DNA from: Antedon bifida
Lineage: Eukaryota > Echinodermata > Crinoidea > Comatulida > Antedonidae
Direction of reading: 5' to 3'
Length of the DNA: 64,000 nucleotides
Assembly (NCBI GenBank): GCA_963402885.1
Contig: OY727093.1
Coordinates: forward strand, 28,209,409-28,273,408
The position numbers were made by a program, and so were the translations under genes. The notes under the pieces are model-generated. The model was not told where the DNA came from. It saw nothing but the letters and a program-made list of their open reading frames with translations, and did no database searches. Shown here in pieces: positions 41,501 to 62,500 of the stretch (the first letter of the stretch is position 1; each line of letters begins with the position of its first letter).

Positions 41501-44500
41501 TTAAAGTGGGGAGATTTTTAATATTTATAACCTAAAATATATTTTGTTACTATTTATTTATTTATTTATTAAACTTTGTTTAATCAGGGTGACTCAAAAC
41601 AGCCGGGGCTGACATGCATGAGGCCCTCAACATTTAAAAAACGGGAACGATACAAACACTATACTAGCGAACTAAGATAAAATGTCTTTGTCGACCTTTC
41701 ATATTTTGTCTTATTTTACCGTAATAGTGTTTTCCCTATGTGGTTGATTTTCTCTTTTTAAAAAAATATAATAAATTCATAAAGCAGAACACTATTAAAA
41801 ATAATAATAGTTTGTCAAAAAGTAGTTCGTACAGAGATGTCATTTTAGCACTTTGAGTACTTAATTCAAACCCTTAAATTTGTATCAAATAACATTTTCA
41901 CTATTAAAAGTAAATAAAAGTAGCACTGTTTATTACCAACAAAGAGTGTTAATTTTAATTTTTCAGTCCTTGAATAGTTATCTATTTTAGCGATCAATAT
42001 CGTAGATATAACAATCTTTAGAGCACCATCAGCATTATAAATATAAAGCTCTATAGATGTAATCTTACAACAAAAGGTGGTTGAACCAAAGAGTATAATA
42101 TATACATAGTACCTCACTGTTTATATTTGTTACTGTTTATTTATCAGAAAAATTTAACGTCCATCGTAATTTCTATTGAAGTGTATACAATAGCATCTTT
42201 GTAAGTGTTACCTTAAAGAAGTACATAATTCTAATAAAATTTGATAGAATGAAATATTGAATAAATCAAATATAGACTACTGAAATCTAGAGAGAGTGTG
42301 TAGCCTACTCTCCAGACTACTGAAATCTAGAGAGAGTGTGTAGCCTACTCTCCAGACTACTGAAATCTACAGAGAGTGTGTAGCCTACTCTCCAGACTAC
42401 TGAAATCTAGAGAGAGTGTGTAGCCTACTCTCCAGACTACTGAAATCTAGAGAGAGTGTGTAGCCTACTCTCCAGACTACTGAAATCTAGAGAGAGTGTG
42501 TAGCCTACTCTCCAGATTACTGAAATCTAGAGAGAGTGTGTAGCCTACTCTCCAGACTACTGAAATCTAGAGAGAGTGTGTAGCCTACTCTCCAGACTAC
42601 TGAAATCTAGAGAGAGTGTGTAGCCTACTCCCTAGACTACTGAAATCTAGAGAGAGTGTGTAGCCTACTCTCCAGACTACTGAAATCTAGAGAGAGTGTG
42701 TAGCCTACTCTCCAGACTACTGAAATCTAGAGAGAGTGTGTAGCCTACTCTCCAGACTACTGAAATCTAGAGAGAGTGTGTAGCCTACTCCCTAGACTAC
42801 TAAAATCTAGAGAGAGTGTGTAGCCTACTCCCTAGACTACTAAAATCTAGAGAGTGTGTAGCTTACTCTCCAGACTACTAAAATCTAGAGAGTGTGTGTA
42901 GCCTACTCTCCAGACTACTGAAATCTAGAGAGAGTGTGTAGCCTACTCTCCAGACTACTGAAATCTAGAGAGAGTGTGTAGCCTACTCTCCAGATTACTA
43001 AAATCTAGAGAGTGTGTGTAGCCTACTCCCCAGACTACTGAAATCTAGAGAGAGTGTGTAGCCTACTCTCCAGATTACTAAAATCTAGAGAGTGTGTGTA
43101 GCCTACTCCCCAGACTACTGAAATCTAGAGAGTGTGTGTAGCCTACTCCCCAGACTACTGAAATCTAGAGAGAGTGTGTAGCTTACTCCCCAGACTACTA
43201 AAATCTAGAGAGTGTGTGTAGCCTACTCTCCAGACTACTGAAATCTAGAGAGAGTGTGTAGCCTACTCTCCAGACTACTAAAATCTAGAGAGTGTGTAGC
43301 CTACTCTCCAGACTACTGAAATCTAGAGAGAGTGTGTAGCCTACTCTCCAGACTACTGAAATCTAGAGAGTGTGTAGCCTACTCTCCAGACTACTGAAAT
43401 CTAGAGAGAGTGTGTAGCCTACTCTCCAGACTACTGAAATCTAGAGAGAGTGTGTAGCCTACTCTCCAGACTACTGAAATCTAGAGAGAGTGTGTAGCCT
43501 ACTCCCTAGACTGCTGAGTACCTTCAATTTCTGAATACCAGGTATTACCCGATATCTATTAAGAAAGTATCTTCACCTATTATGTTATACCCAAGTTTAA
43601 TATAAAACGACAAGTATCTTTCTGTCTCTTTTGTTATTCCAGGGGCCGGATTTAGAGTAAATGGAAATAAATGCTTTTGTAGATAATAAAAGAAAGAAAG
43701 TATTAAGCTTTAATTTAACATAAAAAATACAGATAGCCCCTAAATAGTGAATAACACAAACACTATAATTAAATAAATAAGTTTGTAACCTTTGTAATAT
43801 TTATATTGTACATAAAACATAATTCAGCATAAATGTACTGTACTGTAATTGACATTTGTCACAAGATGCATTCACTCACCAGCATCGGGGTTGAGAATCT
43901 CGATTTTACAATATTACACAACAAATATAACTATTTTGATGACACGCATTCTCTTACAGGCACTGGAGTTAAAAGATGAGGAAGTTGCTCTTATACGGGA
44001 AAAAATGGATCACGAAATTGAAGAGTTAACTGCCAGTTTGTTTGTGGTAGGGATTTCTTTAAGTGCTGTAATATCGTATTTGAATTACTGTAGTTTAATC
44101 GTGCATAGACTTTATTTCTTCGATATTTTATTTTGCAGGAAGCCCATGCTATGGTAAGAGAAGCCAATCTAAAGCAAGCTGAGGCAGAGAAGATTTTAAA
44201 GGAAGCCCAGGGAAAGGTAATTAAATTATGACATTCTAAAAAATCTGGTAGCTTAGAAAACAATTCCAGTAAGCGGACAGTTTAATATAAAGAGCTATTT
44301 AAACAGCTTCAAAGCGTGAAGTCTATTGGCTACACCTGAAAGCTGGAGAAAGTAGAACATCATTCTAGCTTCTCTGCCCTTTATTTATTTTATGTCTTTA
44401 GGCACATGTGGCCAAGGATTACCAATAGTAAATAAATCAGATCAGATAGGTAGTAATACCCTTGATGCAGGGGCTATTTTGTGAACCAGTTCACCAGGGT

Positions 44501-47500
44501 AACCCCCTACTCATATCGATTAATGAACTGGGTTCTTTAATGTGCACACAGGTTATAACTGTGTACAGAACTAGGAGCGAGTTGGCCTCGACCCATGCCG
44601 ATATTATTAGCTCCTTGGGTATGGTAAATGGCACACCTGCCTTAACTGCTCGGCCATTTGACTCGCTCGACAGAACTGGAGACTAAAACAATCATATTAC
44701 CAGTTTTCTGACATGACAGTACAATAGAGATTTTAATTTTTAACAATATTTTGTATCAGCCTAGGCCTGATAGAATCATGTGCTAAAATCGCATTACTCA
44801 GGCAAGTCATTTCTAACGGCACACTCTTTACAGATTGATGTATTGCAAGCAGAGGTTACTGCCCTCAAAGCAATGGTCCTAACATCAACACCCAGTATGC
44901 CGTTACCTCCGACACAATCACCGAAGAAATCGATAAGCATATTGAAACGACACAAGCCACAGAATCAAATTATCAGTCAACAGATGAGTATGTATAGTCA
45001 CCATTGGAGGAATCCAGCATTGCTTGATACACCACTGGAACGAAGTAACAGCAGTCCAGCAGCTATTAATAACTCAACAGTACAGGAGCTAAAAGAGGTG
45101 ACACGAATGCTTTGATATAATCATTATATAGTCTATATCGTGCCTACTTACCTGGATGAACCGACATAGGCCTTTTCCCCATCGAATTGAAAACATAACT
45201 CTAAAAGAATTAACACTGTATCGCCAAGACAGTGGTATCATATCGGAACGTGTTAACCATCGGAAATGGTGAGGTATACGGCTCATGGAATATACCACTG
45301 TCTTGGAGGGGTGTTAATTCTTTTCAAGTTATTTTCTCCCTATTCTCTCAGAAGGGAAAAAGACCTATGACGGTTTATCCAGGTAAGTAGCATTCATAAA
45401 AGACTACCAAAACCACCTTTCGGCAAAAAAGTTTTGGTTAAAAAAAATTTCTTTTTGGTGCAATTCAAGTTGTCTAGGATAAATTAATACTAGTATTAGT
45501 TATTATCTTATCCATTACAAAATAATTCATATTATTAGGGCTCCCCGCTGGAAAAAAGCTCGACGTCGAACTTGCAGTTAGTTACCGACAGTAATTCAAT
45601 AGTATTTAGACAATGCGTCGATACTAAATCGACAGTATTTTGAGGATCTTTAAACAATAGAAGCAAGCAAAAACTAATTGGATTTACTATAAATAAACAG
45701 TTGACACGCGCTATCCTAATTAAGGCGGTTTATTCAAAAGCAGCGTTTTCTTTGAAGAATGACAATTCGCCGTCACATCGGTGACTTCCCTTACCCGCCT
45801 GATAAGGTGATCCGCCCACACCATGTGCCGCGTGTTGACCGACTATTAGTGTCTGATGTTTACAATTACAATCTTTGCCCGAGAAAAAAAAAACTTGACG
45901 TCTTTTTTTGTATATACAATACACGTAGGCCTAGCTTGCCGAGTGCCTAGCCTAGCCTACACTAGTATTAATAATATATTGATAATAATGTATATTAATA
46001 AAAAATAAAAATTATATCAAATACTGTATATCACATGACGTACAGAATTCCATTACGTTCTGTATAACTCTCTACCCAACACGTTTTATTAGCGAGGTCA
46101 TGTCACGTTCGCATTAGCCTATCTATTTGCATGTTTTCCTCGAGTTTCAACTTAACCACCGGCAATTACAGTATTGTGAAAAAATAAATATACCCGATAA
46201 CGTACACATAGTCTTACGGTTTTTTAAAAATGTATTCATAAACACGCCCCATATCATAACAACCCATCCTATGTTTATAGATTCGTAAAATGGTAAAATA
46301 GTATAGTCCATTTTTATAGACCTAACATGTTCCCAGCGCATAAGAGCCATTAGCAGCACATGGTTTAACAGCGACGCAGACTTCTCCCTTGTTAGCGGCG
46401 GCGTGTTAAAGACATTTTTGGCATTCCATTTCTCTTTGAAATACTACTTAGCACCCACTCCACTACTGCAACGTCATACTTGTTAACAACAAACAGTAAC
46501 CTATGTATGATTATGAAAACTAATTTGAAAGACATTTTGGTAATTAAACATTTATTAATTAAGTCATAAATATACATTCAAGCATGATTTAAAATTTAAT
46601 TTTAAAATGTATTTTCGTTAGCCAAGGAAGTAAATTATACAACAATAGGTCCAATACACTACCAACAAAATTAATCACATAAACATTTCGCAAACTTCAC
46701 GCATCGTTAAGCTCTTCATAAATCCAAATTGTATTTTAGGATGTCACAATCAAAGTGTTAAAATGATAACATTGTTGCTCGCTCAAGTGGATTGCCTGCA
46801 GATTACTGAAGCCGGCTCGGGATCGTTATATATAATTATATAGAAAAGGTTTCGCAAAAAATGTGTATCAAATACAGTGGTAAATGTTTCGATTCAAGAT
46901 TATAGGGTGGTGCGCGGATCGATGATTAGCCTTCAAAAGATTTTGAAGTATTGCACACTATATATTAATAGTGTGCAATCGGACCACAAGACCCCGACCA
47001 AGCGCAAACGTCTATTGTGATTCACCGATTAATTCCACCCAGTATTACAAATGATCAAATTAATATAGGCCTACAGATTATTGTATAGTTTATTATTTAC
47101 GGTTTACTAAAACATTAAGACTCTATTAAAACAAAATTTCAATAAATTCTTTTATTTAAAAACTTAATTATTTACAAACATTGCTGATAAAAGTTTGCGG
47201 TACACCACGTGTATTAGTTCTGAAAAGAAATGTTGAGTTTCTCGACGTTTCGATCAATATGCTTTGATCGTCCTCACTCTTCTCACGTCGAGAAACTCAA
47301 CAGTTCTCCAGAACTAATACACGTGTTGTACCGCAAACTTTTATCAACATTTGATTTCGCCATGCAAATCTTCAAACAATATTTACAAACAGTAATTTCT
47401 TTACGCTATTTGATTTTTTTTTTTTCTATATTGAATTTCTCTGAATTTTTTTCCAATGATACTTCTGGTATCTGCATATTCTGAATTTGGAAATCGGTCG

Positions 47501-50500
47501 GCAACGTAATCTGAAAAATGCACATAAATAAATATAGATAAATAATATTGACATTGGAGTTATAAACTTATAATTTTAGTTATCACATGTTTTAATTCGC
47601 CATCCTATTTAACATTTCTTTGAGCCTGACCAACTACACTATGGTATTAAATATGAATCACATTGTTTTTTAAAACAAACTTTCATAGTAAAATAAAATT
47701 GTTATCATGGTACCTTCAATCATTGTCATTTTGGTTTTGTCTATGGCATCTCGCCCATTCTTTCCAGAATAGTTGGAATTTTGTAATTCGTCTCTGCTAA
47801 ACAAATTCTCAACCAGAAAACGAACCGCCAGTGATTTCTTGTTTATTCGGTCAGCCCGTCTTTTTATATTTCCAGGCAGTTTCTATACGAAAAATGTAGT
47901 TACAATACTCTTATAAAAGCCATATTGATAAATAAATACGTTAAAACATTCATTATAGGCCCACGAATTCCGTTCCCATGAACGGCGCAAAATTACAGAA
48001 CAGCTATATTAAGGTTTTTCCAACCAAACAAATTGTAGTGTCGGACATTATAGAAACATTATTTATTATACTGTATATATATCTTTAACAGTACTTACAT
48101 CTTCGGAAACATTATCTTCATTCCCCAGTGGTTGCATAGGCTGGTTTGGTGCTGCTACAGGAAATCCATTTTGCTAAAAGAATAATAAAATAATAATAAT
48201 AATAATAATAATAATACGTCGGATTAATTTTTCAGTTAACCTGTAATTAAACAAAATAGTGATTCAATGGTAAATAATAAACATAAATAATCAAATGGCA
48301 CATATACTTACTTGCAATCTTGACATGGCCTTCTCCACTGCAGCCGTGATCTTTTCTTCCATTTCTATACTCTTTCTCCGTTCCCGCTCTCTGACTTCGC
48401 TCTCTCTCTTTTCATTTCTCTCTCTTTCTTCTCTCAGTTCTCTTTCAACCCTCTCTCTTGCTTCTTTCTCCATCGTCATCTCTCTCTCTATTCTTTCTGT
48501 CTCTCCCTCATTCGCTGTCTCTCCCTCATTCGCTCTGCCATTCCTTTCATCAACAAACACTGCCATTGCCCTTGCGTATTCTTTTTGTTGCATTTCTGTG
48601 TATAAGAAAGAAAGATTAATGCTTGTATATGATTACTCTAAAATTTATAAGGCGGCACGGGACGAGTTTATAATCCCGTCATGGACCTATAAATTCTAAT
48701 TTATAGATCCCACATTAAACACATGTGTTCATTTAGAACAGGTAAACGTTTCAGGATAACCAACGTTAATAATACATCTTACTTACCAATCCTTAATTGT
48801 TTTTCTGATTTTTCTGAAATGAATATTGTAAAATAACATGTTAATATTGACATCTATTCTTTATATTTACATTACAATATCCGTAGTTTCGAATCATTGT
48901 CATAAACCGTAGGTTTTACTCGCACAGTTTGGACACCATTTAAATAGTTTACAATTGAGTGTAGTTGGAAAGACACATTCAAGCTTGAACTGTAGCTGAA
49001 AATCCCACACATCCCAAAAAATTGTAGACTTTATATTTCAACCAATTATATATAACAGTATGGGCGCCGCTGATTATGAGTATATCATAGAAATGTGCGA
49101 TATGTGTGTCAATGTTCGAACGACATAAATAAAACCTCTTCTAAATAGAATATATATTTCTTATTACCTTTCTTTTTCCGTTTTCCGTCCTGTCGTTTCT
49201 TATTAGCTATAATGAAATAAATTTCAATTATTGATTAACAATTTAAACAAATGCCGCCAGTAATTTTCATTTTAATTTTTTTTTTTTCAATCTTTATTAT
49301 TTTTATATTTTTTTGTTAACTGATTAAGTAGTAGTTATAGTTTAGTCTAAAGCATTGGATTTTCAAGAGATTGGTATAAATGGAAACATTACTTTATACC
49401 TTTTGGACCTTGTTTCTTTCTTTTCCTTCTTCCATTCTGCTCTACGTTCTCTTTATCATTCTCTTCCACTTCATTGTCATCCATTTCTGCATCTTCTAAC
49501 ATCACGACTTCATCTTCCACTGCTCCATCTTCTGCTTCAATTTCTGTTTCCTCATTCTCTAGTACTTCTTCATTATCTGCTTCTACAGCCTCCTCATCTA
49601 TTCCTGCATCTACTACCTCGTCATCATCCAGCCTATCTTTTGGCACTTCCAATGCCTTCTTAGTGGCTTTATTAAGAAAAGTTTTTTTTTTATTTAACTA
49701 CGATCATAATCGTAAACATTCTTCTTGGATCAACAATACATTTAAAAACTTACATACATTTTTAAATTGTGTTTAATCGTTTTGATAGCAAAGTACAATG
49801 ATCGTAGATTTTTTTATTTAGTTTTTATTGTTTTGTTAGTCTTCATAAAACGAATCTGATGATAAATAATAACAATAATAATAATAAATAAAACTAACCT
49901 GCCATTGAAAATAGTTTACCGTGAAAGCCTTTCACCATTACTCTGGCACCAATAATAAGTTTGCCATTGACAGACAGTTTCGACCCGGGGCTTAAGTCGG
50001 CATATGAGTGGTCGACGTCAAATATGACACGACCCCATGCTATAAAATAAAATTAACAGATCGTTAAGCTTCTGTTCAGTTACATTTTTAATTTACAAAA
50101 ACTATTAAAAAACCTGATCAGAAAACTAAAACCCACTCCTTTACCTATACATCCATGAAAAACCTCTCAACTGACATCTCAAATGACATATAGGCCTATT
50201 ATATATTAGATGCCTTTATATTATGACGATACATTGGGTCCTCCCAAATATTTTAATTGATAGGGCTTGGTATTTAGGAGGACCCGAGACATTGTATCAA
50301 CTAATGGCTTACCATGGAGCTTATAGCTGATAATGGTATTCGGATCCGGCTACAGTACCTGATTAATCTTAAAATTGTACATATCGTAGCATAACGTTAC
50401 TAATTAAGAGTAGGGTAAAACATCTAATTACTCAACTCCCTGACGCAAAACTACAATTACAATAATAACGTTACTTTATGTATTAGAAACAATATTTAAT

Positions 50501-53500
50501 ATAATATATAGCCTACTCACATTTAATCTGCAAAACATTCATTGTCGCTTTATATTTATAATGCAAACGTTTGAAGAAATACTGGAAAAGGTTGATGATT
50601 ACCATACGTTCTAAAAAAAGCTGTGTGCCACGCTTTCATACGCCACAAAATGGGCGGGCATAAAATGCTTGGGCACGCTATTAAGTTATTTATGAAGGTT
50701 ACATAATAGTTATTTCGAACTCTGTATGTCGATTGTCCTTTTCGGGCGTGTCTCTTAAAAGTGAAATAACAGTTATTACAAAGAACGACGATTGTTTTCG
50801 CGTGGTTCATTACAACGAATAAAATATTTTTACCAGCACGTACGAACTTTCATTCGAACACAACGAATACGTTTAAGCTTACTTTTGGATTATTTAAACC
50901 CTAAGTTCATTTTCTTAAACATTCGTTATTTACTTTGCGGTTTTGTCTCTGTATCGCTTTTAAAATGAGTGCTGTCGAAGACGATTTTCTATTCGGAATC
51001 ACGAATGTGAATGATGAATTGAATGATTCTGCATGGATTGATCTTGTTCAGGATTCGCTCCATAACAAACCTCTATACGAAGGATGTACTATAACTGATC
51101 TTGACAGTGTGGCCCTTCTGATGTCCCTTTACATTGAGCACCAGGCAACTAACCGGCTGATTGAAGATATCCTAAATTTATTGAGGATGCATATGCCAAG
51201 AAATCTAGAATTTCCTAAACATATAAAGTCGACATATCACCTCAAGAAGCTATTTTTACAGGGAAAGGCCGATAAAATTCACCAACACAAGATGTGCCAT
51301 TTCTGTAGTAAATTGTTGACTGAAGCTGACGCGGTTGCCTGCACAACTTGTAAAAAAAAGACAATGAAAACACCTCCGTTTTTCATTACAATTGATGTTG
51401 CAAGCCAGTTGAATGAATTGTACAAAGGTAATGATTTTATGTCACTCAAAATTATACTTAATTACAAACATTTGATGTATCCATTGATATTATTAGGTTA
51501 CAGTACAGTAGCTTGTATGCCTATTTTGTTATCATTAATTTCATTATGGTGTACCGTTAACGGTTTAAACAATATAATAAAACAATTAAAGTATGTCTTC
51601 ATTTAGTTATCATTTTATTAATAGATCCTTATATTTTATTATTAGATCCCAGCTTTAGAGATAATCTAAATTATAAAAAGACAAGGAAGCAGCCAGAGAA
51701 CGGAACGATTTCCGATATATATGACGGAGAATTATACAAAGAAAGAGCTGTTACTGGTGGATTTTTGAGTAATGAGGACAATTTGAGCGTTGTATGGAGT
51801 ACGGACGGTGCCGCAGTAAGCAAAAGCTCACACGTGTCAATTTGGCCTGTTCAAGCTGTCATTAACGAATTACCACCAAGATTGAGGTAAAACACACACT
51901 ATTGGTATTTATTTGTTAGATAATATTTAAATCCAAAGGCAAATTAAAAAATAAGCAAAAAGCTAAATCAAAACGATAAAGCATAACAGACATAAAAATT
52001 AGCAGAGTAATATATTTATTATTCTGTGTCGGGCGTTCATTTACATTTGAAGGAGGCACATTTATTTCATTAGATTATTTCAAAGATAATATGCAAATTA
52101 TATATATATATATTTTATTTTCCAATAATTGTATTTTCTTGTAGATTTACCAAAGAACGAGCTCTTGTGTTTGGACTGTGGTTTGGTAAAGACAAACCAT
52201 TGTTATCAAGCTACTTTAAGGTTATAGCAGAAGTATGGAACAACTTACAAAAAAAAGGTGAGATATTCGGAATCACATATTAATTCAATTAATAATGTTA
52301 GAACACTTTTGAATACATCGAAAAAAATCATGCTAGCATGGAGCTATTAGTATAAAATTTGTTATAGCTCCATGATGCTAGCGTTTTATTATTTACATTT
52401 CGATCGCGTACCTCCCGCCGGATTGTCGAGTGCTAATGAACGTTTACAATTAAAATCGCAGTACAGTAGTAAGAAAAAGTAATTACAACTAACATTAACA
52501 CAATCGTATGCACCGGACATGACGTTTAGTTAGTAGTTTTTTACCGTTCTTAAAATAGCAATTTCAGTCGCGTGTATTATTGCGCTGTGAGCCGCAACAG
52601 GTGAAAAAATATTAGGCCTATATATTGTAGAATGTATTTTATTTAGTCTTTTTAAGTAACCAATATTCAATAATTCACGAACTCATTTTCATTGCGGTTC
52701 AAGCCTTGATATCTGGGCTGTATCAAGTTACAGTGACAAGGCGTGTACAGTATTTACTAGCAACTCATGCCGGGTACGCGCTTGTCTGGTTGCGGTGTTC
52801 CTTTGTACGAATTATAACTCTAAATTTAGAATTGGTTAGCTAGCGGGCGTCGATATCTGGGCCATACTACATCCAGGGACCAATATAGTTACGACGCGCC
52901 AATTATTTCGCAACTCGCCTACATTTACAAGTCCGTGTGTGGGGTCGCTTTATTACGATCGCGATTCGCCTATAGTAGATCATAGACTAAAATTGTATTA
53001 ATTAGGAACCACTTTAGGAAGTTAACAGCAAGACTTCTGTATGCCTAAATTGCTCTAAAAGACCTTCGTCCCCTGGAACGCAACCAAAACAAATCCTGAA
53101 CACATCCCTAATTTTTTTTTTTAAATGTCTTTTATACTAATAAAGGTGTAATTGTGAACTGTGGTCCGACAAAAAAAAGAGTGAAAATAAAGTTTCTGGC
53201 AGGAACTATGGACCTACCAGCAATGGCCATGGTAAAAGAGATCAAACAGTTTAATGGGTTCTTTGGCTGTGGAATATGTGAGGAAACGGGCGTCCGTGCG
53301 AAGCAAGGGAAAGGAAGCGTTCAAGCGTACCCACAAAACGCCGAGCCAGCGCAATTAAGGACAAATGACAGGATGAAACGTCAAGCTATTCAAGCTGTGG
53401 CTTCCGGAAAACCTGTAAGTGTAACCTGCATTAGCCTTTGTTTATTTTGTAAAGATGTATTGTCCCCCAAAAACATGAAAAATGAAGATTAATAAAATTA

Positions 53501-56500
53501 TTCTTTGGATAGTCCATTTTGCATCTTTAATATTTACAGCTTTAAATTACAGGGTTAATATATTGTGGCTATATACACAGGGCTATTATATGCAACATTA
53601 AAATTGCATATCAAAAAACTTTATTGCCATATTGTGATAATTTTTCTTTATTGGGGAAACCATTTTTGTCATTCTAAATTAATTTTATTTGATCAGGTTT
53701 GTGGCGTTAAACAAATGTCGGCCTTAACATTCATCGAAGATTTCGACCCAGCAGTCCAGATCATGATTGATTATCTTCATGGTATCTGTATAGGCGTCAC
53801 AAAAGCCCTTGTCAAGCTTTGGTTGAAAAGCAGTGTTAAGGAGCCATACTATATCGGAGACAAGCTTGATCAAATCGATGGAAGACTTGCAAACATAAAA
53901 CCACCAGACAATCTCACAAGAAATCCCCGCTCATTAGCTGCTGAACTGCCAAATTTCAAAGGTACCGTAGTTAAGTACAGTACATATTTAAATATCGACC
54001 ATGTTATTTCGACTAGTGTGTTAAGTACATTATACAATATACTGTTTGAAGGTTTGCATGGCGAAATCCAATGTTGATATAAAGTTTGCAGTACACCACG
54101 TATATTAGTTCTGAAAACAACTGTTGAGTTTCTCGAATATGCTTTGATCGTCCGCAGTACATTATACAAAATAGGCCATACATGAAAGGACATTTAAAAC
54201 CAAAGAAGATCGTCCAAAATTATTTTACACACAGAAACTTCTATTTAGATTTTTCTTTCAATCGTTTTAGTACATATAAAACATATTTAAAAGTTGTGTC
54301 TAATTTACTAGTAATTATCAATTATTATTATATTAACATATATTAACATGTTTTCTCTCCATACAGCCTCTGAATATCGAGCATTGCTACTGTATTATGG
54401 CCTGGTGGCGTTCAAAGGAGTTTTACCTGACAAGTACTTTAGGCATTTTGCAATGCTGTCAACGGCCATTTATTTGCTCCTTCAGGATGAAGTGACTTTG
54501 AACGACAGAACGACGGCGTCCAGTTTGCTCAGGGAATTTCACAGACTATATTCAGATTATTACGGTAATTAATTCATTTTAAATTTTGTTAGTAGGGCTA
54601 CTGGGCTTGAAAAAATAGGTAAATTTAACCAATGTAAATGTGTCTTTAACAGCACTGGAAAGTTCACGGGGTCAGTTTTACCACAGGTTTTACACATAAA
54701 AAATAACTGAAAATTACTATACTACCTTTTTTGCCATTCATTAAATTTTCATTATTAATATATAGGAATTCAGAATTGCACTGTGAACTTGCACAATGCA
54801 TGTGCACACATAATCCGGTGCGTTGAATTGGCAGGACCTCTTTGGGCTTTTGGTTGCTTCGCCTTTGAAGGAAACAATAGCACAATGGTGCGATTTGTTC
54901 ATGGAACGAGATACGTTGGAATGCAGGTACAGTACACTAATTTTAATTTTTCCAGATCGTTTTATCAATATTTATTTAGAAAATCCGATAATAAGAGTTG
55001 TATGCATTCAAGGACGAATATTAATAATGTGCTTCGTAATGTAATGCATATTCCATTAAAGTGTGAGAAAAAAAATATATCATGATTTACTTCTATATAC
55101 TGACAATGATTTTGACAGAATGAAAATATTAAACAACAAATTGTCTGTTTTAGGTAGCAAATGGATACCACATGCTTCAACGTATACGTTCTTTAAGTCA
55201 AGTAATCACTTGTCCCGAAGTTAATGACTACCTACGACGAGCAGCCAACAAGAGAAAAGGGTAAATGAGGAAATATAATTTTATAAAAAAAATATATATT
55301 TTTCTTTCGTTAACATTAATGTGTGTATTTGACACACGCTAATCAATACATTTGAGTAGAGGCCACACTTGTGTAAACTGAATTGTATAATACAGTATTT
55401 ACTGTATATTAATATTATGATACACTTTTTTTTTTCATTTTAATTACCCTCCTAATTTACCTTTGTATCAATTTTTGTATATATCCCATGCGATTTTTGG
55501 GTATTTTTTCAATGAAACTTTTATAAATAGAAATTTATATTTTGTAAAAAAAATGTTTTTATATAGATACCAACTGTCGCCTGAATTAGGGCGGATGAAA
55601 CGTTTACCGGATGACAACGGTGTTACCATGACGTTGAAAAGAAAGTTTGGATGTGACGCGGTTGTGCGACAATTTTCAAGATATGTAAACGGGTGGGATA
55701 TTTTGATATCTGAAAACTGGCTCAGGCAAAAAACAAAGGATTCAACGGTTGTCGCCTACATGGATGGGAATGTTCAACGTTACGGGAGGATACTGGCGTT
55801 TTACAACATCTTGACTAATACCGAACAATTTAATGTGGCTGGCATCATCCCCGCCAATATTGTTTATGAGAATGGAATCGTCGGAGACGGATTGCCACTT
55901 ATACATGGGCTCAATGCCGGTGGCCACACAAAAACCATTCAATTTGACAGGTAAGTTTATATTTTATATAAACTTTTTTTATTTAAATAAAATTACTAAG
56001 TGGACAATGATTTATTAAAGCGTTATTAATTAATAATAAGAATTAGTTATTATGAAATTTGTTTTTATTTACTTCTTAGATCACAGACACACTACGTTGA
56101 TATCAAAGACATCGTGATGCGCATGGTGATGCTTAACGAAGGTGCTGAGACTGGCCTTATAATATCCATTGCGAATAAATCAGACCACGACTAAACTTCA
56201 CCAATCAAACCATGGAGGATTTCAATTCAAACAAAACTGCTCTTTTCAGAGCAACTTATATTAAGACAAAGAGATTTGATAATGCATTTGTTTGTTTGTT
56301 TATTCATTTCCACTGAGCATTAGCGAATTTACACAAATTTCACACATCGTTAAGCTTACACCATTCATACAATTATTTCACTAAAAAGCTGATTATTTTA
56401 TAAATATTGGAATTAAATTATATAGGCCTATATTTCAACAAATTATTCTAAATTTGGACAAATTGTTTTAATTTTCTGTTTAAAACAAATATTAAGTATG

Positions 56501-59500
56501 AGTAAATTTATTTTGACCCCCAAAAACCTGTTTGCGCTATGCATTAAGTCACACAGTGTTACGTCACATTACAACCGAGGGAGGGCAAACAACGATCGGA
56601 AATCCATTCAAATTTCTTATTCGCCTTCCTACCAGTACCAGCAACATTTGTAAATACAATTAATTGAATCACATAAACATTTTGCAAATGTCACGCATCG
56701 TTAAGCTCATTCATAAAACGAATGCAGTGTTTTATTTCAATCACTAAAAAGCTAATTCAACATTAAAGTTGGTTTTCAATTTTCACTGCAGTAATGACTA
56801 TTAAGTATTAATTATTGATTTTTATATCGGTTTTTTTTTAAAGTATTTTATAAATATTGGAATTAAATTATATAGGCCTATATTTCAACAAATTATTCTA
56901 AATTTGGACAAATTGTTTTAATTTTCTGTTTAAAACAAATATTAAGTATGAGTAAATTTATTTTGACCCCCAAAACCTGTTTGCGCTATGCATTAAGTCA
57001 CACAGTGTTACGTCACATTACAACCGAGGGAGGACAAACAGTGATCGGAAATCTATTCACATTTCTTATTCGCTTTCCTACCAGTACCAGCAACATTTGT
57101 AAATACAATTAATTGAATCACATAAACATTTTGCAAACGTCACGCATCGTTAAGCTCATTCATAAAACGAATGCAGTGTTTTATTTCAATCACTAAAAAG
57201 CTAATTCAACATTAAAGTTGGTTTTCAATTTTCACTGCAGTAATGACTATTAATTATTGATTTTTATATCGGTTTTTTTTTAAAAGTATTTTATAAATAT
57301 TGAAATTAAATTATATAGGCCTATATTTCAACAAATTATTCTAAATTCGGACAAATTGTTTTAATTTCCTGTTTAAAAAAAATATTAAGTATGAGTAAAT
57401 TTATTTTGACCCCCCAAAACCTGTTTGCGCTATGCATTAAGTCACACAGTGTTACGTCACATTACAACCGAGGGAGGGCAAACAACGATCGGAAATCCAT
57501 TCAAATTTCTTATTCGCCTTCCTACCAGTACCAGCAACATTTGTAAATACAATTAATTGAATCACATAAACATTTTGCAAATGTCACGCATCGTTAAGCT
57601 CATTCATAAAACGAATGCAGTGTTTTATTTCAATCACTAAAAAGCTAATTCAACATTAAAGTTGGTTTTCAATTTTCACTGCAGTAATGACTATTAATTA
57701 TTGATTTTTATATCGTTTTTTTTTTCGAAAAAGTATTTTTTAAATATTGGAATTAAATTATATCTATTTGAACAAATTCTTCTAAATTTTTGTAATTTTC
57801 TGTTTAAAAAATATTAACGCGAGACCAATCGGTTAAATTGATTGTATTGGTTTTATTATTGCTATTAATTATTAATTTTTATATCGGTTTTTTTTAAAGT
57901 ATTTTATAAATATTGGAATAAAATTATATATGCCTATATTTCAACAAATTATTCTAAATTTGTACAAATTGTTTTAATTTTCTGTTTAAAACAAATATTA
58001 AGTATGAGTAAATTTATTTTGACCCCCAAAACCTGTTTGCGCTATGCATTAAGTCACACAGTGTTACGTCACATTACAACCGAGGGAGGGCAAACAACGA
58101 TCGGAAATCTATTCACATTTCTTATTCGCTTTCCTACCAGTACCAGCAACATTTGTAAATACAATTAATTGAATCACATAAACATTTTGCAAACGTCACG
58201 CATCGTTAAGCTCATTCATAAAACGAATGCAGTGTTTAATTTCAATCACTAAAAAGCTAATTCAATATTTCAATTTTCACTGCAGTAATGGCTATTAATT
58301 ATTGATTTTTATATCGGGTTTTTTTTCGAAAAAGTATTTTTTAAATATTGGAATTAAATTATAAATATTTGAACAAATTCTTTCTAAATTTTATTTTATT
58401 AAGTTAAGACCTATCGGTTAAATTGATTGTATTGGTTTTATTGTGTGTTAGCGTGTTTTATAACATTGTTTTTAATTTTTCACATTGACAACATGGTATT
58501 TTTTAGGTGGTCATGTTTTAACATGACAAAAAGTATTTGATAAGTTAGAAATAAAGAAACATTCAAAATGACTTAAAATAACAATTTTGAAACAACGTTA
58601 ACAAGTAATTTCCTTAGAAAGGAAGTTATACAATAGACCCATCTACCAGCAAAATGTGCAAATACAATGAATCACATAAACATTTTGCAAATGCCACGCA
58701 TCGTTAAGCTCAAGGCAGTTACGATACCCTTTCATGGTGACTTCATTAAAATATTTTCTTTTCACTATTCCAATTTTGTATTATGTATTCATGTGAATAA
58801 ATCGATTGGTCAAACTTGCTTGATCAATATAATATAGCATCATGAACGTTTTATTTCACTGAAAAGTTAGATTTATAAACACGAATAGTCAATAATTCAA
58901 AGTGAAATTTTTAAAAAGCAAAATAAATTCTTTTCAAGCTCGGTAAAGGTTAACGTTAACGTCATGGGGTTGTGTTTAAAATGTATTTAAAACATGTTTT
59001 AACATGACCAAAAAAATGTAAAAAATAAAACAACATTCAAAATGAATTAAAATGATAATTTGAAAACAACATTAAAAAGAAAATTGAAAAAAATGTGAAA
59101 CAAATTAATTAAGATTATTATCACATCGTACATGTGCCCCTACCATGGAGCAATCACTCCATGGTAGAACACAATGTCGATAACATTTCGACATCGAATT
59201 GCTATCGTCTGGCTTACGTAGCAGAATTAGCGATACACGTGTACAATACAAAAATAAGATCACTTGAATTTATTACCTAGGATGTCCACATTTCCTCAAA
59301 ATACGTGTGGTGTAAAATTTTATAACCAAAAAAAATGAAACAACAAGATTAATAACATTTAGTTAAAACTGTGGCCCTGTTCTGCCATGGAGTAATCACT
59401 CCATGGTAGAACACAATGTCGATAACATTTCGACATCGAAATGCTATCGTCTGGCTTACGTAACAGAATCCACGACGCTCATTCAGGGTACAATAAAAAT

Positions 59501-62500
59501 AAAAATGAGATCGCTTGCTTTTAATTAACTATCCTCGAAATGCGTGCCGTGTATAAAAAAAAACAATTATTAAGATTAATAATAATCTTCAGTTAACTTG
59601 TCGTCGAACTGTGACCTGTTCTACCATGGAGTAATCACTCCATGGTAGAACACAATGTCGATAACATTTCGACATCGAATTGCTATCGTCTGGCTTACGT
59701 AACAGAATTAGCGATAGGCCTACACGTGTACAATACAAAAATAAGATCACTTGAATTTATTACCCAGGATGTCCACATTTCCTCAAAATACGTGTGGTGT
59801 AAAATTTTATAACCAAAAAAAATGAAACAACAATATTAATAATATTTAGTTAAAACTGTGGCCCTGTTCTACCATGGAGTAATCACTCCATGGTAGAACA
59901 CGATGTCGATAACATTTCGACATCGAAATGCTATCGTCTGGCTTACGTAACAGAATCCACGACGCTCATTCAGGGTACAATAAAAATAAAAATGAGATCG
60001 CTTGCTTTTAATTAACTATCCTCGAAATGCGTGCCGTGTATAAAAAAAATAAAAACAATAATTAAGAATAATAACCTTCAGTTAACTCGTAGTTATCGGA
60101 AAAAAAAAAAGAATCTTCAGTTAACTCGTCGTAGAACTGTGACCCTGTTCTACCATATAAGTATAATCATTCTATGGTAGAACACAATGTCGATAACTTT
60201 TCGACATCGAACTGCTATCTGAATCCTTATAGTACAATACAGAAATCAAAATTAATGAGATCGCTTGCTTTTATTATACCCAACTATCCTCGAAATACGT
60301 GGTGTATACATCGGAACAAAATGAAACAATCAGATTAATAATATTCAGTTCACTTGTACAACTGCGACCGTGTTCTTCAATAATAAAGTCATCACTCCAT
60401 TGTAGAACACATTGTCGATAACTTTTCGACATCGAACTGTTATCGTCTAAGGGTAAGGCCTACATAGGACTACACGTCAATAAGAGCGCATGTTTTATCA
60501 CCATACTAGAAATGGATATGGGGTAAACTATACAAAAAAACTATTACAATACATTTTAGGTTAACTCATCATGTTAGTTGCCATTAATAACTCAACAGTT
60601 CAACAACATTCAATTTCCGACATCGAATTGCTATCGTTTATTAAATGGAGTAACAAATAATATGGAAGGAGCTAATTTCGTATGTGTTTGTTATCGAAAT
60701 GTGTAGTAATAGTATGTAATACACAAAATTAAATTTTATTCAGGCTGTTTCAGTGTGCGGTTAGGCCTACATTAAAAATTGTACTCATTTTCGGGGTACT
60801 GTAGGCGCGCCTATGTTACAGCAGCAGGTATGTCACTAAACACCACCACCACGCGTCGATACGTACTTCGTAGACTACACTACGGACTGCACTCTGGCCG
60901 CCGCCGTGGCGACATCGAACTGTCATCGTTTTGATAACGAATCTGCTTACCAGTAAAATACTGTTTGTTTTCATTATTAAATTAACTATTTTGAACCAAA
61001 AACATTTAAATAGCTAAAATCTAGTCTTAGGCCATGGTCAGGTTTATAATACACACAGACCTAGGCCTAGCCTTGATTAAGTTTTCTTCCAAGCCTAACG
61101 TGGGCCTGTGGAGGAGGCCTAAAGGATAGCCTGATATTATTTGCGTAGCCTATAATTTTCGTTGTTAAACAAATATAGGGGGCACAATTGATGGAAAATA
61201 ACTATGTTTAAGTCTTGTAAATGCAAATCTGTCAATCAAAACATAACACACCCAACAATTCGAAGGGAGATAAACAACTTATCAGCTCTTATCGGGTGTG
61301 AAGTGTGCCTGTATCGGAGCTTCCTGGCAACATATATTTGGTGATTTCCCTAATCTACAAATAGACGTCGACGCGGTAGCGCGTTTGTGTCTAAACTGTC
61401 GAACTTTTTTCCAGCGGGTCTCCCAAATCCTGATTCCGCCGTTAAATATATCAAGTATTTAGTTATGAACAATAATACTATGTTTGTGGTATGAAATGGA
61501 GGCTTAGTTGGATGCCATCTTGATTTGACGATTACTGCAGCATATTTGCTGTGAATTATTTTTAGTAGGCTATGTAGGCTAACAAAAATGAAAAAATGAA
61601 AATGGAAAAACAAGCACTTCCTCATCTTGTTTATGAATACTAGCTAATTAATAATTAATAAATTAATTAATAATTGTTATCATTTTTTAAAGGCGGATCC
61701 AGTAACATTACATGAGTTTGAAACATGGAAGAAATCACCGTCATTGTCCATGGAAAGTGCGTTCATGAAACGTATACAGCTAGAAGATGTGCAACCGTGT
61801 TTGACATTCCCGAACAACGCCCTCACTGAAATGGTCCAAAAATGTGTCCTAAACAACTCATTATGTATAGAACCAATTCATGGTTCACAAAACACAAAAA
61901 AGTAAGCAATGATACATTAAAAATTATTTGGAATAAAGTAGAACTCATCATTTGGGAAAACATTTTTCAGGGGACAACTTTATTAACTTTACTATGAAAC
62001 AGATGAGGGTCAATGTATGAACACTCTAACCAATTCATCGTATTCATTTATTCATCAGTGGAAAATTACTTCCATTTATTGTCATTTGCATATAAAATAT
62101 ACATAGAAATTATCTTTGCTCTGAGATACAAACACAGATAAAAGAAAAACTAACAAAACAAACAATTACAAAGTGTTATATCGCTCTCATACGGTTTACT
62201 GACAAGAATTTAGTGCCAGAATGGCAGCTGGATAAAAGCTGTTTTAAACCTATTTGTACGAGAGATGATAGACCGGTAACTCCTATGACACACTTTGTTG
62301 TGTCTATGAATAGGAGTTCTACTGTAGTATGTTGCCATGTCTATATAATGTATTCTTCGTCTTCATCATTGTAAGTTCCACAATAAAAATATTATTACAG
62401 AACTAGAAGGCCTACCAGAAGTAGTGGCTGTGTGTGACAGTGGCTGTGTGAACTAGTACACCAGGGTAACCCCCTACTCGTCTCAAAAGATGTACTAGGT

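Follow-up and report, generated by a model that had tools for sequence, protein, structure and literature searches.

What kind of mobile element carries a transposase gene next to a gene for a BEN-domain protein, and does the second gene belong to the element at all? The question is raised by a 64,000-nt stretch of the genome of the crinoid Antedon bifida (assembly GCA_963402885.1, contig OY727093.1, positions 28,209,409 to 28,273,408; hereafter the window), where an element of 15,875 bp occupies positions 45544-61418. An earlier note, based on the sequence alone, had described it as a structurally complete two-gene transposon of the EnSpm/CACTA type, recently active and lying in an intron of RAB3IP. 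The results obtained here make it likely that we are dealing with a complete DNA transposon of the cut-and-paste type, belonging to the CMCT (CACTA/EnSpm-Mirage-Chapaev-Transib) clade and having CCCGC at its ends and target duplications of 2 bp, in which a BEN protein would play the role of TNPA, a protein of the plant element En/Spm. The boundaries of the window copy are as follows.

45542..45543, no strand: left copy of the target-site duplication, TC, from flank matching
45544..45564, + strand: left terminal inverted repeat, CCCGCTGGAAAAAAGCTCGAC, from repeat comparison and the genome scan
61398..61418, - strand: right terminal inverted repeat, CCCGCTGGAAAAAAGTTCGAC when read on the - strand
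61419..61420, no strand: right copy of the target-site duplication, TC, from flank matching

The two inverted repeats agree at 20 of 21 positions, with TC directly outside each. The whole genome (315.6 Mb in 27 contigs) was scanned for these ends, and the reversed end pattern served as a control. With up to three mismatches, the 21-bp end was found at 18 places (16 exact, one with one mismatch and one with three) vs. six for the control. When only the first 15 bp were used and one mismatch was allowed, 22 places matched (18 exact, four with one mismatch) vs. 25 for the reversed pattern, so that this count is uninformative by itself. Of the 18 exact 15-bp places, 12 are accounted for by the two ends of six complete copies and five by single ends; the last one is the right end of a second family, termed family B. 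The single ends all sit on copies or fragments of the window family, the one on C13 being rearranged just inside the end (C and L numbers are our handles for contigs and loci). The search thus added five complete copies to that in the window.

Window: 15,875 bp, flanks TC
C7: 6,617 bp, flanks TA
C7: 8,389 bp, flanks TA
C7: 12,383 bp, flanks TG
C8:20821347-20827983 (L013): 6,637 bp, flanks TA
C8:20985936-20992572 (L014): 6,637 bp, flanks TA

All six copies have the ends CCCGC..GCGGG, and the sequence similarity among them extends inward beyond the ends. Target duplications were scored on these copies only, as single ends allow no such comparison; the flanks agreed over 2 bp in six of six cases and over 3 bp in none. 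The completeness of the element as claimed in the earlier note was thereby borne out, and its TC turned out not to be a fixed target, TA being found four times and TC and TG once each. A wider palindromic target was also considered and rejected: judged by eye, the window flanks are quasi-palindromic (ATTAGGG/ATTTGGG) and those of the other five copies are not. The comparison with empty sites succeeded in part. For the 12,383-bp copy, a related site (L016:1023-1317, 89% identical) contains a single TG and no interruption, i.e., one restored 2-bp target. One of the C8 copies lies in a tandem array. The adjacent units lack the element, but since they differ from one another by a few bases at the junction, they are supportive only. 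For the 6.6-kb C7 copy the comparisons were too diverged to use, and the three remaining joined flanks, including those of the window, gave no junction-crossing site in the DNA compared.

The element contains two genes.

50965..56194, + strand: gene 1, transposase of 771 aa, gene model with 10 exons (50965-51427, 51646-51886, 52145-52257, 53146-53414, 53697-53961, 54367-54564, 54766-54926, 55154-55260, 55567-55950, 56080-56194)
47401..50542, - strand: gene 2, BEN-domain protein of 377 aa, gene model and Pfam, 9 exons (50542-50521, 50039-49899, 49666-49400, 49206-49168, 48813-48787, 48595-48312, 48173-48099, 47882-47714, 47510-47401)
47401..47882, - strand: exons 8 and 9 of gene 2, encoding the BEN domain, which is divided by a phase-1 intron

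The genes are divergent, as the earlier note had them, with start codons 422 bp apart; in the models every intron is of the GT-AG type, and the two reading frames are open. The gene 1 protein matched tnp2 (PF02992) with 25.2 bits (E 1.1e-5), under the Pfam cut-off of 28.6, and more weakly the Plavaka transposase (PF18759; 21.3 bits, cut-off 26.3). Neither DUF4218 nor DUF1258 was reported for it in the Pfam search; DUF4218 came just under the cut-off in two more distant paralogues. Of the tnp2/DUF4218 assignment proposed before, the second half is not supported, and for the first there is a sub-threshold match. The conserved residues D208, D295 and E551, together with C314-x2-C317 and H526-x4-H531, fit the catalytic and zinc-binding motif given in the accessible part of PMC12730594. 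Structure models, made for two homologues of it, P0014 and P0001, display a RAG1/Transib-like catalytic fold followed by a C-terminal BAH-like domain, with which residues ~608-765 of gene 1 align. In the protein database, the closest homologue belongs to another crinoid, Anneissia japonica (60% identity over 70% of the query), and further tnp2 proteins related to gene 1, many of which carry DUF1258, are found in records from sea cucumber, thrips, clam, coral, fish and spider. A sequence search of the PDB returned a single match (E 0.28), and a scan of IMG/VR with homologue P0002 returned none. At C13:5127369-5133205, six consecutive matches to one stretch of the transposase (~residues 282-359) were observed, as if an exon had been tandemly multiplied.

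The product of gene 2 carries a BEN domain (PF10523) scoring 28.7 bits, above the Pfam cut-off of 23.2, so that what had been called BEN-like can be named a BEN domain; acidic and charged stretches precede it. No relatives were found in the protein database at E<=10, either for the whole protein (5,418 candidates) or for residues 284-377 (16 candidates), and a sequence search of the PDB gave no match. Fragments of the gene persist in three older copies of the element: L015, which retains the last exon with 98% DNA identity, L018 and L019.

Among the copies found, both genes are whole only in the window. The five shorter copies share one identical deletion junction, which runs from a point near 47216, within a hairpin repeat, into transposase exon 9 and takes out the BEN gene and all transposase codons except for about the last 80. 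The identity of the junction in five copies indicates a single deletion, the spread of which presumably took place in trans. L013 and L014, located 165 kb apart on C8, show no differences over 6,637 bp and have different flanks; identical copies at different sites imply recent movement, and the pair reflects a very recent jump, possibly a local one. In pairwise comparisons of the six copies, the left 1.65 kb differ by 0-1.3% and the right 1.5 kb by 0-0.8%, but by ~5% for the 12.4-kb copy; older relatives of the left end are 82-95% identical. The recent activity suggested in the earlier note was therefore seen for the family, in its deleted copies, and the window copy would be an autonomous source by virtue of its two open genes. 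Figures for selection come from small samples and pieces of dead copies, and they carry little weight. The transposase differs from the C9 copy by one synonymous and two nonsynonymous changes in 495 codons, from a short C7 copy by none and two in 77 codons, and from an older copy at C8:20.947 Mb by dS 0.10 and dN 0.037 (ratio 0.37; 359 codons, with gaps). For the BEN gene, the counts of synonymous and nonsynonymous changes were 2 and 0 vs. L015 (36 codons of the last exon, a tiny sample), 11 and 14 vs. L019 (65 codons, with gaps), and 4.5 and 4.5 vs. L018 (20 codons). Separately, right ends with identical flanks lie ~41 kb apart at C9:12.95-13.00 Mb (L016 and L017); this is a segmental duplication carrying an element copy with transposase exons 4-10.

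The subterminal repeats noticed earlier were also recovered, and both tandem arrays lie in the right third of the element.

46664..46715, + strand: left-side copy of a 52-bp subterminal motif
47182..47349, no strand: hairpin repeat in which the deletion of the five shorter copies begins
56394..58405, + strand: right subterminal array 1, unit of ~444 bp
59118..60444, + strand: right subterminal array 2, units of ~240/487 bp, with CCATGG palindromes and TCGA motifs

According to the repeat search, the 52-bp motif has a single copy on the left side, at a distance of ~1.1 kb from the end, against five on the right. Array 2 contains eight CCATGG (expected 0.1) and 22 TCGA (expected 6.5) and no CGCG. 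The enrichment in CCATGG and TCGA was not found in the left 2 kb of the element nor at the right end of family B, and the excess within array 2 arises from the tandem copies; it suggests a binding test and does not count as evidence of binding. As for the setting, an open frame at 61648-61905, 3′ of the element, matches the RAB3A-interacting protein in a PDB sequence search (4uj3, E 5e-10), in agreement, on this side, with the placement in RAB3IP. Rfam gave no match in the window at the gathering score. A tandem repeat (40-bp unit, 31 copies, 95% matches) lies at 42274-43517, ~2 kb ahead of the element.

Where does the element belong? Its catalytic motif and the fold modelled for homologues would place it in CMCT. 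It differs from Transib, ProtoRAG and RAG1-RAG2 in the partner, which is BEN and not RAG2, and in the duplication, which is 2 bp here and 5 bp in Transib and ProtoRAG. From Plavaka it is set apart by its ends (TGT or CATCA there, CCCGC here) and by the nature of the additional gene, that studied there being a TET/JBP dioxygenase and that found here BEN. It shares with Plavaka and ESTA, which are fungal CMCT elements, the C(2)C and H(3-4)H motifs and, with PlavakaA and some PlavakaB, the 2-bp duplication; ESTA duplicates TA, which is the target in four of our six copies, TC and TG accounting for the others (PMC12730594). There are also similarities to plant CACTA/EnSpm elements (En/Spm, Tam1, and the 20.5-kb Tgmt* of soybean), like which the element probably works: as described in the accessible part of PMC2613891, these are large and have a tnp2-type transposase (the family that gene 1 matched under the cut-off), subterminal repeats arranged asymmetrically, another product that binds DNA, for which gene 2 is a candidate counterpart, and deleted derivatives moved in trans, as would be the case here; Tgmt* also sits in an intron. 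However, the plant elements have CACTA ends and 3-bp duplications, their second product comes from an alternative transcript and not from a separate divergent gene, and the match to DUF4218 is absent here.

These similarities might mean that the element is an animal EnSpm/CACTA-type transposon already catalogued, for example, in Repbase, whose second gene simply has not yet been annotated as BEN. The tnp2 proteins in many animal records, many of them with DUF1258, and the second DNA-binding product of CACTA elements (PMC2613891) speak in favor of this explanation. Nevertheless, we regard it as rather unlikely, given that canonical EnSpm elements are defined by CAC..GTG ends and 3-bp duplications (PMC12730594). 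With CCCGC and 2 bp, the element is not a canonical EnSpm, and the plain EnSpm/CACTA membership proposed at first is not supported as it stood. Moreover, in those parts of the literature that our search covered we found no description of EnSpm combined with a BEN domain or of a DNA transposon that carries a BEN gene, which accords with the earlier note, where the arrangement was not recognised as described; Repbase lay outside this search, so the element itself may be catalogued.

Does the BEN gene then belong to the transposon, or is it a captured host gene, a passenger without any role in transposition? The evidence comes mainly from family B. Its transposase gene (C8, 20998638-21006258) is paralogous to gene 1, with six exon matches 46-55% identical and three 28-32% identical, and its right end at 21026372 begins with the same first 15 bp as the window family, followed by TA; the left end was not found. 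Between the family B transposase and this right end lies, on the - strand, a BEN gene scoring 33.2 bits. Judged by eye from the translations, the intron that splits its domain agrees with that of gene 2 in position and phase. Homology of the N-terminal parts of the two proteins, again by eye, is suggestive and not established. Alongside several elements, two more BEN genes with split domains occur in the same C8 cluster (20.94-21.03 Mb), termed D (19.5 bits, under the cut-off, 7 kb from transposase fragments) and E (24.3 bits), neither of which can be assigned to one element. Because of the high density of transposons, the members of the cluster do not count as independent trials. A BEN gene accompanies at least two families having these ends.

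Several observations weigh against this conclusion and favor a passenger, in which case family B would reflect a separate capture or a chance neighbor in the cluster. The window family and family B differ in gene order; no BEN was found in 14 kb around a relative on C12 or in the stretches covered beside ten tnp2 loci that are more distant; genes D and E remain without a definite element, and the BEN pieces in L018 and L019 are decayed. BEN was not seen at the C9 copies or the older C8:20.946-Mb copy either, but the genome search in question failed to detect the BEN genes present in B, D and E as well. Against the passenger stand the phase-1 intron that splits the domain alike in the window family, B, D and E, in contrast to the single-exon domain of another BEN-like gene (L052, below), the location of the family B gene inside the right end, and the retention of BEN exons in three older copies, including the L015 exon without nonsynonymous changes, tiny as that sample is. 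On balance, we consider a mere passenger improbable. As to the possibility that two host-type genes happen to lie between chance inverted repeats, the 15-bp end being no commoner than its reversed control, it is refuted for all practical purposes by the six complete copies with matching target duplications, by the similarity extending inside their ends, and by the excess of the full 21-bp end over its control.

Other genes were noticed near these loci. A BEN-like gene with a single-exon domain (L052:2932-3441, and also C7 14496075 and 17060489) gave equal scores of 20.3 bits at its sites, under the cut-off, and perhaps belongs to a different mobile element on C7. An uninterrupted cyclin-like frame (L050:3166-3918, - strand; C8:20996038-20996790; Cyclin_N, 118 bits) is perhaps a retrocopy or a captured gene. 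It was considered as a partner of the family B transposase and set aside: it lies upstream of that gene and could be placed neither in nor out of the element, as the left end was not found. Beside the transposase exons of the C12 relative, L051 (C12:18138001-18144000) contains a Harbinger-like transposase frame, recognized by eye, and a Myb/SANT gene detected by Pfam.

Returning to the transposon with a BEN protein in the role of TNPA, we propose the following mechanism. Gene 1 would encode a transposase of the RNase-H type (RAG1-like), which cleaves the DNA at the CCCGCTGG ends and has TA as its most frequent insertion site; the C-terminal BAH-like domain of this transposase probably reads chromatin. 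BEN domains are DNA-binding modules of chromatin factors, and the literature, as far as consulted, describes their binding to specific DNA, e.g., CATG or unmethylated CpG motifs. Most probably, the BEN protein binds the subterminal repeats and assists the assembly or regulation of the end complex, similarly to TNPA of En/Spm, which recognizes subterminal repeats and is required by TNPD, the tnp2 protein, so that transposition needs both (PMC2613891). A BEN-like fold is also known to recognize transposon ends in the DBD1 of Tn3-family TnpA, where, unlike here, it is bacterial and part of the transposase itself (according to the accessible part of PMC9579193). Judging by the deleted copies, both proteins may act in trans on internally deleted elements that retain their ends. 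More tentatively, and here we see a possibility and not yet the favored view, these elements may form a separate animal lineage of RAG1-like transposons, in which a transposase with a BAH domain for chromatin reading and a BEN protein for recognition of subterminal repeats constitute an independent counterpart of TNPD/TNPA and RAG1/RAG2.

The element is of interest in that a BEN domain travels inside a transposon, beside a RAG1-like transposase. This may be an animal counterpart of the plant TNPA/TNPD pair, with the subterminal arrays as candidate binding sites, and the short deleted copies offer substrates for a direct test of what the second gene does. The PHD finger of RAG2 reads histone marks for RAG, and the BAH-like tail suggests that transposases of this kind may read such marks in a somewhat similar way. 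If BEN is ancestral to the lineage, the BEN proteins of transposons could be a source of the host BEN chromatin factors.

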